Shown here piece by piece: positions 15,691-46,539 of a stretch of DNA of 64,000 nucleotides. The notes beneath the pieces were generated by a model. The model was not told the DNA's origin. It did not search any database and worked only from the letters and a program-made list of their open reading frames with translations. The DNA is from Flavobacteriia bacterium (lineage in GTDB: Bacteria > Bacteroidota > Bacteroidia > Flavobacteriales > Flavobacteriaceae). The stretch covers positions 1 through 64,000 of the forward strand of contig RDXY01000005.1 in the NCBI GenBank assembly GCA_004293045.1, written 5' to 3'. Both the position numbers and the translations under genes were made by a program. Every line of letters starts with the position of its first letter. Position 1 is the stretch's first letter.

Positions 15691-15720
15691 TTTAGAAAAT
15701 AGAGAATAGAAAATAGAAAA
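15691..15720. repeat. Heptanucleotide tract downstream of frr
   Basis: AGAAAAT-AGAGAAT-AGAAAAT-AGAAAA, period 7. Confidence 0.7.
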
Positions 15721-15755
15721 CCCTGCAAATAATTTAATTCGCAGGGTTTTTTGTG
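15720..15755. terminator. Intrinsic terminator after frr
   Basis: ACCCTGCaaataatttaattcGCAGGGTTTTTTG. Confidence 0.75.
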
Positions 15756-15762
15756 TTTTTGA

Positions 15763-15897
15763 TTATTTTTTGTCTAAATATTTCATTAGTTTTTTATATA
15801 ATTTAACAATAGCGATAACTATAATTATCAATATAATAAACATGAGAGTTTGTAATAAAAATAAACCTAAACTAAATTCATTAAAAATTTTTCCCAT
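15763..15897 (-). CDS. 44-aa single-TM small protein (family A)
   Basis: MGKIFNEFSLGLFLLQTLMFIILIIIVIAIVKLYKKLMKYLDKK; complete short ORF below track cutoff, tail shared with 16049..16219. Confidence 0.6.
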   Translation of the reverse strand: MGKIFNEFSLGLFLLQTLMFIILIIIVIAIVKLYKKLMKYLDKK

Positions 15898-15913
15898 AAG
15901 AAAATATTGAAAT

Positions 15914-16033
15914 TTAGGATTTTTTATAAAATTTTATTAAAATTTTAATTAAATATAAGATTGCAATAATAATAAACACATACATAACAACTCTTATTGC
16001 ACCAGTTGTCGAAAAAAATAAAAATGACTTCAT
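15914..16033 (-). CDS. 39-aa single-TM small protein
   Basis: MKSFLFFSTTGAIRVVMYVFIIIAILYLIKILIKFYKKS; complete short ORF, tandem with neighbours. Confidence 0.5.
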   Translation of the reverse strand: MKSFLFFSTTGAIRVVMYVFIIIAILYLIKILIKFYKKS

Positions 16034-16048
16034 AACTATTAAATTAAT

Positions 16049-16219
16049 CTAAACATCATTCTTCTTATCTAAATATTTTGTAATTTTTCTGTAAAGTTTA
16101 ATTATATAATATATCACCACAATTAAGAGAATAATATTAATTATAGGTATTAATATTCCTAATAAATAATGAAAATAATACGAAATAGTCTCTGGATGCT
16201 GTACTTTAATTTCTTTCAT
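16049..16219 (-). CDS. 56-aa single-TM small protein (family A)
   Basis: MKEIKVQHPETISYYFHYLLGILIPIINIILLIVVIYYIIKLYRKITKYLDKKNDV; ATG 3 nt after the orphan-tip stop. Confidence 0.6.
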   Translation of the reverse strand: MKEIKVQHPETISYYFHYLLGILIPIINIILLIVVIYYIIKLYRKITKYLDKKNDV

Positions 16220-16222
16220 AAT

Positions 16223-16333
16223 CTAATATTGAATTGTTGCATAAATTGAACCATTGTTTTTAAGAAATTTAATCTGAAAATGTTCTGATGCTGAAAATAC
16301 AGTGCCAATCCCTTCAAAGATAATATTGAATAG
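16223..16333 (-). pseudogene. Orphan fragment resembling the C-terminus of the 16540..18255 lipoprotein
   Basis: LFNIIFEGIGTVFSASEHFQIKFLKNNGSIYATIQY*, no start codon and in-frame TAG just upstream; IKFLKN-NGS resembles IKFLINKSNGT of the upstream lipoprotein. Confidence 0.45.
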
Positions 16334-16358
16334 CTAGGAAAATTTAATGTTTTTAAAA

Positions 16359-16535
16359 TCATATTTTTTTATTCTCATTATTTTTTTCAAGCTCCTCTAT
16401 TTTTAGTTTATAATATTTTTTTTTAATAAAAATATAATTTCTAACTAGGAAATAAAAAGTTACAATTAAATATAATAAGCCCAATAAAATAATTGTTGGT
16501 ATAAAATAACTAAAGGTTTCAAAAATGTCTTTCAT
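16359..16535 (-). CDS. 58-aa small membrane protein
   Basis: MKDIFETFSYFIPTIILLGLLYLIVTFYFLVRNYIFIKKKYYKLKIEELEKNNENKKI; start trimmed to the internal ATG 4 nt after the lipoprotein stop. Confidence 0.65.
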   Translation of the reverse strand: MKDIFETFSYFIPTIILLGLLYLIVTFYFLVRNYIFIKKKYYKLKIEELEKNNENKKI

Positions 16536-16539
16536 AATA

Positions 16540-18255
16540 TTAATCAAGATTAGTAGTAACAGAACAACATAATGTGCCATTACTTTTGTTTATTAAAAAT
16601 TTTATCTTTTTTCTATTCTTAAAACCAAATTCAAATTCTTCGTACTTAATTCCGATATTAAGATACCCTGTCAATGTGATTTGTGCTTCATTGCTACTAT
16701 AGTTTTGATTTGTCATACTCATTGTTGTTTGCACCCAAGTGTTACCAGGTAAAAACCCATCTAAATATGAATTACTTTGATTATCTAATGTTATATTTGA
16801 ACCTTTGTTGGCAACTACTTCAACAATAATTGTATGTGTTGAACTTATTCTTATTTTCTTTGTTGAAAAAAATTGATTTTGCGTTTCTAAATTAGAAACA
16901 TCGGCGCCATCTCCTTGCGATCCGTTATTTAATGACTGAACAAAAGTGTTTAATTCTGTAATGGAATTAAAATTCATTAAATTTTGATTACTATTTGAAT
17001 TAGAAAAACTATGATAATCAAAGTTTATATTGTTTTCAGATGCAATATCAATTAATCCGTCAAGTTTTTCAATTTTTTCTAAACTTGTCAAATTTTGTAA
17101 TATACTTTGCTTTGTTGTTGCACTCTGTCCCGATAACCATTCACCATGTTGAAGTAAAAACTGAAAAGCATTATATTGAAACAAAGAAATTTGAGCTTGG
17201 GTATTTATTGTATCAGGATATTGATAAAAAACACTTGGCATATTATTAAAAGCATACGTTAAAGCATTTTGATTTGAACTACTCAATCCACCATTAACAC
17301 CAATCCAATAATTTGTATACGCTAAAAGCCATTCTGTGGATTCAACTACATTTTTAATAGCATTGTCAGAGGCATATAAATTATAAATAAATTGATTTAT
17401 CTGAAGCATATTTTGAGTAGCAGGATTGCTTAAATCATCACTATTAAAATAATTAGGTATAAATATGTCTGTATTTGAACTATTTTCACCGCCACCACCA
17501 AGACCATTATTTTCATTTCCAGATGATGGATTAGATGGGTTTTGATGGTTATTCATCCATTCCAGCACATCTGGTATAAAATCTTCGCCTCCACTAGTAG
17601 AACAATCGCTTGCAAGAACTTTAAAAACAAGAACTTTTCTTCTACTACCATCATTATTAAAACATTCTGGATTTTCACCAGGAGTAGTAAGTTCTCCCTC
17701 GCAATAATCTACTTCTTCGTAATACCCAACTTCAAGACATCCACTCGTATTGGTTACATTAGATGAAGAACTATTGAGCCTTGCAGTTGAAGTGCTAGTG
17801 ATTGAGTTCATAAACATGTCATTATTGCTAATTTGTCCTAAATGTTTGTTTAAATAATAAGTTACTAAGTACGTTTGAGGACTCTGATTTGGCTTACAAT
17901 CAATTACAATATTTTGTGAAAAAGTAGCAGTAGCTGATTGTAAAACACGAAAAGAAAAAGTTTCTTGGTTGTTAGTTTTTTTTAAGTATTGAATATTTTG
18001 TAAATCTATATCAAAATCGGAAATAGATTCAATACTATTATGTTTATCAGCAGGTAAAACTTTTTTAAGTTTAGCTGATTCAATAAATGCTTGATTGTTG
18101 ATGTTTCTCAATTCTTGAAAATTAATCTTTTTAAAGCGGTAATCTCTCGTGTCTATATTTAAATTTTCATCATAAGCATCTTTACTACAACTAAATGTAA
18201 ATAGCACAGTTACTAAAAGTAGGATGTTTTTCAATTTTTGTTTGGGGTTTTTCAT
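16540..18255 (-). CDS. Large hypothetical lipoprotein with Gly-rich linker
   Basis: Lipobox LLVTVLFTFSCSKD; linker NPSSGNENNGLGGGGENSS; no recognised domain. Confidence 0.7.
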   Translation of the reverse strand: MKNPKQKLKNILLLVTVLFTFSCSKDAYDENLNIDTRDYRFKKINFQELRNINNQAFIESAKLKKVLPADKHNSIESISDFDIDLQNIQYLKKTNNQETFSFRVLQSATATFSQNIVIDCKPNQSPQTYLVTYYLNKHLGQISNNDMFMNSITSTSTARLNSSSSNVTNTSGCLEVGYYEEVDYCEGELTTPGENPECFNNDGSRRKVLVFKVLASDCSTSGGEDFIPDVLEWMNNHQNPSNPSSGNENNGLGGGGENSSNTDIFIPNYFNSDDLSNPATQNMLQINQFIYNLYASDNAIKNVVESTEWLLAYTNYWIGVNGGLSSSNQNALTYAFNNMPSVFYQYPDTINTQAQISLFQYNAFQFLLQHGEWLSGQSATTKQSILQNLTSLEKIEKLDGLIDIASENNINFDYHSFSNSNSNQNLMNFNSITELNTFVQSLNNGSQGDGADVSNLETQNQFFSTKKIRISSTHTIIVEVVANKGSNITLDNQSNSYLDGFLPGNTWVQTTMSMTNQNYSSNEAQITLTGYLNIGIKYEEFEFGFKNRKKIKFLINKSNGTLCCSVTTNLD

Positions 18256-18610
18256 ACATTAAAATTTAAAGTTAATAAAAATGGATAATGTAAATATTAT
18301 ACTAAAGTAATACATTTTTCAAAACAAAAAACAACTATTTTTGATTTTTTCTTAAAATATATATTTTTTTGTTATAGATTATGTAAATTCTTAAAAAAAT
18401 TTGAAAGAATTCAAAAAAGAAATAGTTTGAGTAAACAAATTACTCAGGAAACAATAGATTTTGATTGTGATGTGAATGTTCTGTAATAAGCAGAAAAGAA
18501 AGTTAACATAATCAAAAGATAGATTTTGTACTTATGGATAAAATTTGTAGTGAAATTAAAGTTGACTTTGAGTATTTCAAAGAAGGTAAGCAAGTAAATA
18601 AAGTCAAAAA

Positions 18611-18765
18611 AACGGCGGTAGTGTAGGAGTTATAAGCTATAATCAAGGAACAATTAATTTATTTCCCGAGAACAAAATTGAACATCTAAAAAAATAATTG
18701 AGGAGAGTAAATTATAAGATATGAAGATTATAGAATTAGAAAAATTACTATCTTCAAAAGAATAA
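18611..18765 (+). pseudogene. Remnant of a C-terminal coiled-coil tail, possibly an XRE/HTH regulator
   Basis: NGGSVGVISYNQGTINLFPENKIEHLKK then, in another frame, IIEESKL*DMKIIELEKLLSSKE*; frame broken at a poly-A run plus a stop. Confidence 0.35.
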
Positions 18766-18775
18766 TTAGCATTTT

Positions 18776-43250: not shown

Positions 43251-43826
43251 ATGAGTGTAATTGAAAGAAAATTAAAAGACAGAAGCGAGTCAAAATGTGA
43301 AATTAGTGGTGCCGAATTGGATTTAGTGGTGTACACGTTACCACCTTATACAGAAGAAAGTTTAGCACATTCGGTTTTATTGGCCAAGCATTTAAAAGAT
43401 CAAGTAGAAAACCCAGATACAATGAATCCAAATGATTGGAGAGGGTTGTCTGATAGTATGTGGAACGAAAATTTACCGGTTCAAATTCTTTCTTGGCGCA
43501 TGTTAGCACGTTTAAAAAATATCGATACATTAGAAATGATGTATTTAGACGAAGAAGCTTTAGCATGGGCAAAAGCAACAGGCGAAGGAGAAGAGGAAGA
43601 CGAAAATAAAATTGTGCATAAAGACAGCAACGGTGCCATTTTAAAAGATGGCGATTCTGTGGTTTTAATTAAAGATTTAGATGTGAAAGGTGCTACATTT
43701 ACTGCAAAACGAGGCGCAGCAGTTCACAATATTAAAGTGGTTTGGGACGATGCTAATTTAATTGAAGGTAGAGTAGAAAACCAACACATTTATATTTTAA
43801 CACAATACGTGAAGAAAACGAAGTAA
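43251..43826 (+). CDS. PhnA-domain protein
   Basis: VHKDSNGAILKDGDSVVLIKDLDVKGATFTAKRGAAVHNIKVVWDDANLIEGRVENQHIYILTQYVKKT. Confidence 0.9.
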   Translation: MSVIERKLKDRSESKCEISGAELDLVVYTLPPYTEESLAHSVLLAKHLKDQVENPDTMNPNDWRGLSDSMWNENLPVQILSWRMLARLKNIDTLEMMYLDEEALAWAKATGEGEEEDENKIVHKDSNGAILKDGDSVVLIKDLDVKGATFTAKRGAAVHNIKVVWDDANLIEGRVENQHIYILTQYVKKTK

Positions 43827-43846
43827 TTAGCCAATTAGCCGATATA
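43825..43846. repeat. Short octanucleotide tract after phnA-like gene
   Basis: AATTAGCC-AATTAGCC-GATATAGC. Confidence 0.5.
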
Positions 43847-43865
43847 GCAATGTGATACTAGAGAA

Positions 43866-43890
43866 CCTGCAAGATTTTTGCGGGTTTTTT
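43866..43890 (+). terminator. Terminator-like hairpin
   Basis: CCTGCAAgatTTTTGCGGGTTTTTT. Confidence 0.55.
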
Positions 43891-44005
43891 CTTATACTTA
43901 AATAATATTTAATAGATTTGAAAAACTAAAAAACGAAACAAAACTTTTGCATAGCCACCAAAATACGGGTGTATATAAGATGTTCTATTTTGCACATATA
44001 TAGAA

Positions 44006-44019
44006 GTTAGTGGCAATTA
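44006..44019. repeat. Left arm of 14-bp inverted repeat
   Basis: GTTAGTGGCAATTA. Confidence 0.85.
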
Positions 44020-44037
44020 ATCCTGATTAAGCTAAAA

Positions 44038-44859
44038 ATGAGTAAACTAAATTTGATAGTAGTAATTTTGATTTGCAATTTCATAAGTGCACAAAACAAA
44101 AGTAATGAACAAAACTTTAAACGAAATTCAATATCTATTGAGTTTTACAAACCTATCGAAAATTCTTTATCAGAATTTTATAATTTTAATTATGGATTTG
44201 GAAATTCAATTAACGGAATAAATAATTATTCAAAAAATAAACTTTCAAATTCTTTTGGAATAAGCTATGAAAGAATATGTATTAACAATATTATTTTCAG
44301 ACCTAGAATTGGACTTTCAAGAACAAAAACTAATGAAAATCAGTTCTCCGAAGAACTTGTAGCTAATCCAAAGAAATACACAAAGGAATACATATATAAA
44401 CAGAATAATTTAAATATTTTTGTTGGAATAGCAAAAAGGATTGACCTTACAAAAAAAATAAAATTGGATTTAGGATTAGATTTAGCTTCTATATATTATT
44501 CTAAAGGTAGTGGAAATTATAAATCTATTCAAACACAAAAAGATATAAATAATGGAGATACTTATAAACAAGAAATAAATATCATTAGCGAAATGGGAAA
44601 AGTTTATTCCTTTGGAATTGGTCCTTATTTTAAACCTGAAGTTTCAATATTTACAGATTTTACTTTGTCATTTGAAATGCAAGTTTATTTTTTAAGAACA
44701 ATATCTAGTGATCAGTCATTTCAAATAGAAATTAGTGACCAGTATACTAATGAGATAAATTTTGAACATAATGAATTAAAAACATTAATTAATAATAACT
44801 TTAAATTTTGGGAATGGACGAAAACATCACCACTCTTAAGATTGGGCTATAAATTCTAA
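44038..44859 (+). CDS. Hypothetical secreted beta-barrel-like protein, cassette-like context
   Basis: Signal peptide MSKLNLIVVILICNFISAQ; terminal LLRLGYKF; bounded by inverted repeat. Confidence 0.65.
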   Translation: MSKLNLIVVILICNFISAQNKSNEQNFKRNSISIEFYKPIENSLSEFYNFNYGFGNSINGINNYSKNKLSNSFGISYERICINNIIFRPRIGLSRTKTNENQFSEELVANPKKYTKEYIYKQNNLNIFVGIAKRIDLTKKIKLDLGLDLASIYYSKGSGNYKSIQTQKDINNGDTYKQEINIISEMGKVYSFGIGPYFKPEVSIFTDFTLSFEMQVYFLRTISSDQSFQIEISDQYTNEINFEHNELKTLINNNFKFWEWTKTSPLLRLGYKF

Positions 44860-44870
44860 TTGCCACTAAC
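44857..44870. repeat. Right arm of 14-bp inverted repeat, overlapping the stop codon
   Basis: TAATTGCCACTAAC, exact reverse complement of 44006..44019. Confidence 0.85.
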
Positions 44871-44877
44871 CCCGATA

Positions 44878-44898
44878 GCGCGGAATTGCTTTCCATGC
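44878..44898. repeat. REP-like imperfect hairpin
   Basis: GCGCGGAA-TTGC-TTTCCATGC. Confidence 0.35.
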
Positions 44899-44913
44899 TC
44901 ACAAAGTAAAATA

Positions 44914-44946
44914 AAAAACCCCTGCAAAAATTTCGCAGGGGTTTTT
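44914..44946. terminator. Bidirectional terminator
   Basis: AAAAACCCCTGCaaaaatttCGCAGGGGTTTTT. Confidence 0.85.
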
Positions 44947-44985
44947 CTCTATCTTAAAAAGTGACAAATCACTTATTACTTAATG

Positions 44986-46539
44986 CTACAAATCGAACTT
45001 AATCCCTTGCGCTAATGGCAATTGATCCGAATAGTTTACGGTGTTGGTTTGTCTTCTCATATATACTTTCCAAGCGTCTGAACCCGATTCTCTTCCGCCG
45101 CCTGTTTCTTTTTCGCCTCCAAAAGCACCGCCGATTTCTGCACCAGAAGTTCCGATATTTACGTTAGCAATTCCACAATCCGAACCAGCGAAAGATAAAA
45201 ATTTCTCTGCTTCTTTGATGCTGTTTGTCATAATAGCAGAAGACAATCCTTGTGCTACACCATTTTGTTTTTCGATCGCATTTTCTACTTCGCCTTCGTA
45301 TTTCATTAGGTATAAAATTGGGGCAAACGTTTCGTGTTGTACAATTTCAAAATGATTTTCAGCTTCAATGATGGCCGGTTTTACATAGCATCCCGATTCG
45401 TATCCTTCACCTGATAAAACACCACCTTCTACTAATACGTTTCCGCCTTCAGCTTTTGCTTTTTCAATCGCTGCTAAATACGTGTTCACCGCATCTGTAT
45501 CAATAAGCGGTCCAATATGATTTTTTTGATCTAATGGATTTCCAATAGTTAATTGCCCGTAAGCACCCACAATGGCATCTCTTACTTTATCGTATACACT
45601 TTCGTGAATAATTAATCGTCTTGTAGAAGTACATCTTTGTCCAGCCGTTCCAACCGCTCCAAATACGGCTCCAGGAACTACTACTTTTAAATCGGCAGTT
45701 GGGGTAATAATAATGGCATTGTTTCCGCCTAATTCCAATAAAGATTTTCCGAAACGTTGCGCCACAGTAGTACCAACAATTCTTCCCATTCTAGTAGAAC
45801 CTGTAGCAGAAATTAAAGGAATTCTTACGTCAGTAGTCATCATTTCGCCTACTTTGTAATCGCCGTTAATGATACAAGAAATTCCTTCTGGTAACTCATT
45901 TTCTTTTAAAATAGCAGCAATAATATTCTGACAAGCAATAGAACATAAAGGTGCTTTTTCAGAAGCTTTCCACACACAAACGTCACCACAAATCCAAGCC
46001 AATGCGGTATTCCAAGCCCAAACGGCTACTGGAAAGTTAAAAGCAGAAATAATTCCTACTACTCCAATAGAATGCCATTGTTCTCTCATTACGTGCCCAG
46101 GACGTTCAGATGGAATGGTTTGTCCGTTCAATTGTCGAGATAAACCTACGGCGAAATCACAAATATCAATCATTTCTTGTACTTCACCATACCCTTCTTG
46201 TAACGATTTTCCCATTTCATAGGAAACTAATTTACCAAGCGGTTCTTTTAATTCTCTTAATTTATTTCCAAATTGTCTAACAATCTCACCACGTTGCGGC
46301 GCTGGCATAGCGCGAAACGATTTGAAAGCAGCTGTAGCACTTTGCATTACTTTTTCGTAATCTGCTGCAGTGGTGGTTTTTACTTTTCCAATTAATTGTC
46401 CATCAACTGGTGAATAACTTTCAATGATATCTCCAGAAGAAAAACAATTAGAACCTGTTGAGGTTCCGTCATTAATTTCTTTTATTCCTAGTGCTTTTAA
46501 GGCTTCAGGCATTCCAAATTGTGAGGCTATTGTTGACAT
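44986..46539 (-). CDS. Aldehyde dehydrogenase, ALDH7-like (aminoadipate-semialdehyde/piperideine-6-carboxylate type)
   Basis: GVVGIISAFNFPVAVWAWNTALAW, ELGGNNAIII, GTAGQRCTSTRRL. Confidence 0.9.
   Translation of the reverse strand: MSTIASQFGMPEALKALGIKEINDGTSTGSNCFSSGDIIESYSPVDGQLIGKVKTTTAADYEKVMQSATAAFKSFRAMPAPQRGEIVRQFGNKLRELKEPLGKLVSYEMGKSLQEGYGEVQEMIDICDFAVGLSRQLNGQTIPSERPGHVMREQWHSIGVVGIISAFNFPVAVWAWNTALAWICGDVCVWKASEKAPLCSIACQNIIAAILKENELPEGISCIINGDYKVGEMMTTDVRIPLISATGSTRMGRIVGTTVAQRFGKSLLELGGNNAIIITPTADLKVVVPGAVFGAVGTAGQRCTSTRRLIIHESVYDKVRDAIVGAYGQLTIGNPLDQKNHIGPLIDTDAVNTYLAAIEKAKAEGGNVLVEGGVLSGEGYESGCYVKPAIIEAENHFEIVQHETFAPILYLMKYEGEVENAIEKQNGVAQGLSSAIMTNSIKEAEKFLSFAGSDCGIANVNIGTSGAEIGGAFGGEKETGGGRESGSDAWKVYMRRQTNTVNYSDQLPLAQGIKFDL

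Follow-up and report, generated by a model that had tools for sequence, protein, structure and literature searches.

A predicted polymorphic-toxin array of Flavobacteriaceae with a lipoprotein carrier, an all-beta tip and tiny transmembrane partners

Layout and insertion site of the array

Within a window of 64,000 nt (the whole stretch of DNA that was analysed, taken from a Flavobacteriia bacterium assembly of 1.68 Mb that is 75.6% complete), the interval between frr and an epimerase gene holds a compact minus-strand array, consisting of a lipoprotein gene, several very short ORFs with one transmembrane (TM) segment each, and the start-less remnant of a further C-terminus. The features are:

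16540..18255, (-): 571-aa lipoprotein with signal peptide and lipobox Cys23, carrier module (aa ~5-387) and C-terminal tip
16543..16899 (aa 453-571), (-): the C-terminal tip, a predicted toxin domain of subfamily A, all-beta in its model
16359..16535, (-): 58-aa single-TM protein (MKDIF), predicted cognate immunity protein, class A, 4 nt past the lipoprotein stop
16223..16333, (-): orphan start-less C-terminal tip remnant of another subfamily, ending in FQIKFLKNNGSIYATIQY and a stop (profile E 1.3e-4)
16049..16219, (-): 56-aa single-TM protein (MKEIK), predicted immunity protein of the orphan tip, class B, 3 nt past the orphan stop
15914..16033, (-): 39-aa single-TM ORF, possible spare immunity gene by position and topology only, unclassified
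15763..15897, (-): 44-aa single-TM protein, predicted spare immunity protein, class C (class C profile, 44 bits)
15717..15750, (-): terminator-like stem-loop between the array and frr (one found against 0.5 expected in shuffles)
15760..18762, strand not assigned (.): 3.0-kb insertion with the whole array, reaching from frr to the epimerase gene, from comparison with genome G040

The original prediction had placed here a 571-aa lipoprotein with a Gly-rich linker, followed after 4 nt by the 58-aa TM ORF, and, 3 nt past the orphan stop, the 56-aa TM ORF with single-TM ORFs of 39 and 44 aa behind it; all of this was confirmed, with coordinates exact to the base. The linker occupies aa ~240-260. 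A longer, 73-aa version of the MKDIF ORF overlaps the end of the lipoprotein gene; the start of the 58-aa version is the one conserved in relatives. The promoter pattern of Bacteroidota (-33/-7) occurred with no excess over chance.

The closest relative, G040 (87% protein identity in the neighbouring epimerase), is devoid of the array; there, the corresponding interval measures ~74 bp (5998/6073 in L078) versus 3.0 kb in the window (15759/18763), which, as judged from genome comparison, shows a recent gain or loss of the cassette. The terminator-like stem region (15717-15750) is also present in G040. In genome G476, a carrier lipoprotein ending in Tae4 lies downstream of pyrH-frr together with a class A TM gene and an orphan tip A, on the same side of these genes as the array of the window. 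The frr side and an interval between tsf and a yhhQ-like gene look like preferred sites, although the number of cases is small.

Two further observations concern the surroundings. About 30 kb away, G040 encodes a lipoprotein (L079:4942-7444) that shares its first 14 residues with the window lipoprotein and ends in DUF6973, in an interval equivalent to positions 43826-44986 of the window, where the latter has a different gene (44038-44859). The interval between the lipoprotein and epimerase genes contains, on the plus strand (18460-18775), scraps resembling a frame-shifted gene end (DKICSEIKVDFEYFKEGKQVNKVKK and NGGSVGVISYNQGTINLFPENKIEHLKK, the latter followed by a stop), together with an ORF of 14 codons (MKIIELEKLLSSKE); the scraps may be what is left of an earlier insertion.

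Modularity of carrier and tip

Relatives of the whole 571-aa protein were found in 8 of 199 genomes, its own included, and different relatives match different halves of it. The L004 protein aligns with about aa 5-387 of the window lipoprotein and has an AHH nuclease at its C-terminus (2.1e-5, exceeding the curated cut-off), and the gene after it encodes Imm11 (1.8e-10, over the cut-off); L007 has the first ~150 aa in common with the window lipoprotein and a C-terminal DUF6973 (5e-18), L008 the middle part (aa 264-369) and a C-terminal Tae4 amidase (1e-18). The proteins of L005, L006 and L015, on the other hand, match only the C-terminal part, from about aa 389-459 on, and the window tip is common to these three and L016, each time on a different N-terminus. 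Because different halves are matched, carrier and tip are taken to be exchanged modules, which is a trait of polymorphic toxins (PMC3482391, PMC5562445); one carrier family is joined to an AHH, DUF6973, Tae4 or beta tip, and the alignments thus show, at the level of sequence, that carrier and tip are modular.

Scans of the lipoprotein and the small ORFs against Pfam, NCBIfam and PADLOC gave nothing above the cut-offs; weak matches to Guanylate_kin, SecY2 and DUF5684 were dropped as compositional. A pattern search of genome contigs returned no relative with the whole lipoprotein and four loci with a narrower tip alignment. Two lipoproteins with tip A and dissimilar N-termini (L080 and L081) lie at the same place between tsf and the yhhQ-like gene, these gene names being read from the sequences. 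Carriers with a possible M15-peptidase-like tip and orphan beta tips downstream were seen at L017, L024/L047 and L088; the tip of the L088 lipoprotein is weakly like peptidase M15, below the cut-off, and no intact TM partner was seen at L017 and L024.

The tip itself comprises the last ~115 aa of the lipoprotein. Its profile detected it in 12 of 400 genomes of the genus Flavobacterium, a wider profile in 19 of the 400. Of 238 genera sampled within the family, 11 have it, and its occurrences among 348 genomes drawn from across the phylum all fall in that same family. One Trp, one Gln and two Gly residues are nearly invariant. AlphaFold2 models the window tip (subfamily A) as all-beta (pLDDT 89.1, pTM 0.79), and a second subfamily, also confidently, as all-beta (pLDDT 87.7). 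The tip matched no Pfam family and shows no recognised catalytic motif, in particular none of a nuclease or peptidase; Foldseek comparison of two tip models with the PDB and of one with BFVD gave nothing at E <= 1e-3. The tips are an all-beta family that is undescribed in the databases searched here. The best Foldseek match, that of a subfamily C tip (L023), is to Zea of Listeria (4k15; E 7e-3, prob 1.00, TM 0.46, rmsd 6.4), a ring-shaped secreted RNA-binding protein (PMC6907008); this resemblance between a model and a structure is weak and may serve as a lead only. NTF2-like matches of the tip models were not used.

Small membrane proteins and the orphan tip

In most loci, a tiny single-TM ORF starts 2-19 nt after the stop codon of the tip. 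When an ORF of 35-75 aa with a hydropathy of at least 2.2 was sought within 30 nt downstream, it was present behind 12 of 14 tip genes versus 0 of 83 control long-ORF genes; the two remaining tip genes are L039, where the ORF lies at 42 nt, and L037, where it was missed by the search. Other genomes, mostly of other genera, also have a tiny TM ORF after the tip (L090, L091, L093-L095, L102 and L103). Downstream of the distant tips L096 and L101, a lipoprotein of ~150 aa takes the place of the tiny TM protein, as if the type of immunity had been exchanged; no tiny TM ORF lies close to the distant tips L092 and L097-L100.

The TM partners, mostly of 37-58 aa, read as one hydrophobic segment each, and in 22 of 22 partners and small ORFs examined the C-terminus is more basic than the N-terminus, which by the positive-inside rule predicts an N-out, C-in orientation. 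Class profiles built from other genomes assign the 58-aa protein to class A (52 bits), the 56-aa protein to class B (46 bits) and the 44-aa protein to class C (44 bits), scores reached by 0 of 99 unrelated TM segments; the 39-aa ORF scores only 10.1 bits with the class B profile and stays unclassified. In L005, L006, L015 and L016, tip A is followed at the equivalent position by a class A protein, and a homologue of the 44-aa ORF is the second ORF after tip A in L006/L082. The only close pair available (L020/L031) gives dN/dS values of 0.25 (carrier), 0.33 (tip) and 0.41 (partner, over 44 codons), which indicates coding selection, in a single pair and a short sample. Coding selection on the small ORFs, which the original prediction implied, is supported by homologues in independent genomes and by the partner value of this single pair.

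Partner and tip also vary together. Over 19 pairs, partner similarity follows tip similarity with a Mantel rho of 0.73 (0 of 20000 permutations); among 12 full-length pairs the values are 0.84 for tip and partner (0/5000), 0.35 for N-terminus and partner (31/5000) and 0.20 for N-terminus and tip (352/5000), where the permutation ignores shared ancestry and the N-termini of the same genes provide the internal comparison. These values show a tight link of tip and partner in the sampled sequences, the partner following the tip far more than the N-terminus; the linkage of the lipoprotein C-terminus to the small TM ORFs that had been proposed for the window therefore holds across genomes. As in polymorphic toxins, the partner gene lies directly downstream of the tip and is specific to it in the sense that it co-segregates with the tip and not with the N-terminus.

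The orphan fragment had been taken to resemble the C-terminus of the neighbouring lipoprotein, as if a unit of tip and partner had been duplicated and one tip had decayed. An HMM made exclusively from tips of other genomes, run on 1669 six-frame segments of the window, gave E-values of 4e-27 for the lipoprotein and 1.3e-4 for the orphan, with the next segment at 0.35, and the orphan outscores 2000 of 2000 shuffles of itself. By profile, then, it is a genuine tip remnant, homologous to the lipoprotein tip at the level of the superfamily; it belongs, however, to a different subfamily, and inspection of the alignment by eye places it nearest the L022/L086 orphan (GVGTIFEKERHFRLKINKLTGQI), not the neighbouring tip. 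Since the array has no long DNA repeat and the orphan is of another subfamily, duplication of the unit was rejected, and the fragment is to be regarded as a displaced tip, not as a decayed duplicate.

How such a displacement may leave its mark is seen in the sister locus L086, where the active gene and the orphan share 108 bp at 98.1% identity (2 mismatches) just before their tips and then diverge; a class B TM protein stands directly behind each of the two different tips, the orphan unit being equivalent to the orphan and class B gene of the window. Near-identity followed by divergence is what recombination leaves behind when it displaces a tip, and the L086 alignment shows such an event at sequence level; displacement of this sort has been described for Rhs (PMC3967940). 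Mixed arrays are found in L082 (tip A, A, C), L087 (tip, B, A), L086 (tip, B, C, orphan tip, B) and L088 (orphan tip, C, B behind the lipoprotein); within arrays, TM genes of other classes persist where the matching tips are absent. Orphan modules of tip and immunity gene that stem from tip displacement are a further trait shared with polymorphic toxins.

Proposed function and known systems

The locus is very probably a polymorphic-toxin locus with a lipoprotein carrier, a beta toxin tip and TM immunity proteins. Its contents are best read as an active pair of toxin and immunity gene, a displaced tip that has kept its own immunity gene, and one or two further immunity genes that are spare. This agrees with the toxin/immunity roles originally proposed, to which the AHH and Tae4 tips on the same carrier family (once beside Imm11), the link of tip and partner and the homology of the orphan lend support from comparative data. 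By inference, the tip would be toxic, the TM proteins protective, the lipoprotein displayed at the surface and the target in the membrane or periplasm; the predicted topology of the partners points to the periplasm or the inner membrane as the site of action.

In the proposed sequence of events, the N-terminal module, lipid-anchored and probably on the outer surface of the producing cell, would present the beta-rich C-terminal domain of ~115 aa, which would be delivered to a neighbouring cell and act there as a toxin. The 58-aa protein, sitting N-out/C-in in the inner membrane, would intercept and neutralise its cognate tip before the latter acts on that membrane or on a protein within it. Recombination upstream of the tip would replace the tip and leave the 3' end of the old one and its immunity gene downstream, presumably as the orphan (16223-16333) and the 56-aa protein; spare immunity against other tip subfamilies met in kin may be the role of the 44-aa protein and possibly also of the 39-aa one.

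As to delivery, a lipobox like that of the window protein is found in most relatives, and the D/E-rich sequence after the Cys (C-SKDAYDE) is only loosely like the published surface-export signal C-X-K-(D/E)2 or SDDFE (PMC5080379). The T6SS sheath PF05943 (TssC/VipB) was detected in 0 of 19 tip-bearing genomes, with a model whose sensitivity for Bacteroidota-type T6SS is uncontrolled; the T9SS component SprA was detected in 19 of 19, and Pfam/NCBIfam scans revealed no T9SS C-terminal sorting domain (CTD) in the lipoprotein.

Other explanations were weighed against this reading. It is hardly credible that mere chance in an AT-rich spacer produced both the small hydrophobic TM ORFs and the resemblance of the orphan to a tip: such DNA does yield hydrophobic ORFs and the 39-aa ORF has no clear homologue, but none of the 83 controls has a tiny hydrophobic ORF downstream, the class profiles score far above shuffles and the 99 TM controls, the orphan reaches its E-value of 1.3e-4 over the window, and a partner dN/dS of 0.41 was obtained in one pair. 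Rather improbable, too, is a non-toxic tip with a role in binding or adhesion (as the whole domain or as its receptor-binding part), with the TM protein as its anchor, chaperone or export helper. An all-beta tip without recognised active site would suit this role, and linkage of tip and TM protein is expected here as well; however, the same carriers end elsewhere in an AHH nuclease or Tae4 amidase, one of them beside Imm11, an anchor or helper should track the carrier and yet the partner tracks the tip, and TM genes of other classes persist in arrays that lack the matching tips, like spare immunity genes.

Somewhat less remote, though still unlikely, is a toxin/immunity set whose tip has its target in the cytoplasm or the wall, the TM protein guarding a specific inner-membrane import receptor and not a membrane target. 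The wall- and nucleic-acid-acting tips on the same carriers fit with it, as does the use of inner-membrane proteins as receptors by CDI toxins (PMC11630599); against it, the nuclease tip of L004 has a large immunity protein, Imm11, while the tiny TM proteins accompany the beta tip family in the loci seen, and the tip has no nuclease or peptidase motif.

The predicted set of weapon and shield is of a known general kind, but its family of toxin and protector is not described in the databases searched here. The SitA/SitI system of myxobacteria is alike in its lipoprotein carrier, swappable C-terminal toxin and downstream immunity gene, and SitA toxins have been called the first polymorphic toxins that are lipoproteins (PMC5562445). 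SitA tips, however, are nucleases with immunity proteins of, for example, the SUKH family, in place of a beta domain with a tiny TM partner, and their transfer is by TraA/B-dependent outer-membrane exchange. In orphan modules of Rhs (PMC3967940), too, a displaced start-less C-terminal fragment follows the main pair together with an immunity gene of its own, and nearly identical DNA precedes the two tips (522 bp at 95%, compared to 108 bp at 98% in L086), but the carrier is an Rhs protein and not a short lipoprotein. The CDI ionophore toxins (PMC11630599) are polymorphic toxins which also have small, very hydrophobic and highly variable immunity proteins; they are five-helix bundles with CdiI proteins of 72-100 aa that form two-helix hairpins, whereas no alpha-helical ionophore domain and no two-helix immunity protein were found here, the tip models being all-beta and the partners having one TM segment.

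Within the Bacteroidetes, TANFOR toxins (PMC7073777) likewise bear AHH and other tips with immunity genes just downstream; their description makes no mention of lipoproteins, and scans of the present carriers reported no TANFOR domain. BSAPs (PMC12853789) resemble the present proteins as surface lipoproteins used against related Bacteroidota, but are MACPF pore formers, and no MACPF domain was found here.

Lipoprotein weapons of Bacteroidota are thinly described. The locus family joins an undescribed carrier, an undescribed tip family and very small putative immunity proteins of the membrane, and keeps a visible record of tip displacement. Tentatively, and with more doubt than conviction, it may be proposed that the tips represent a new class of beta-rich, membrane-acting toxins checked by single-pass peptides of ~37-58 aa, and that surface lipoproteins serve Flavobacteriaceae as a general chassis for contact delivery without T6SS or a T9SS sorting signal. 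As ORFs this short are easily missed by gene callers, immunity genes of similar size may be widely unannotated.
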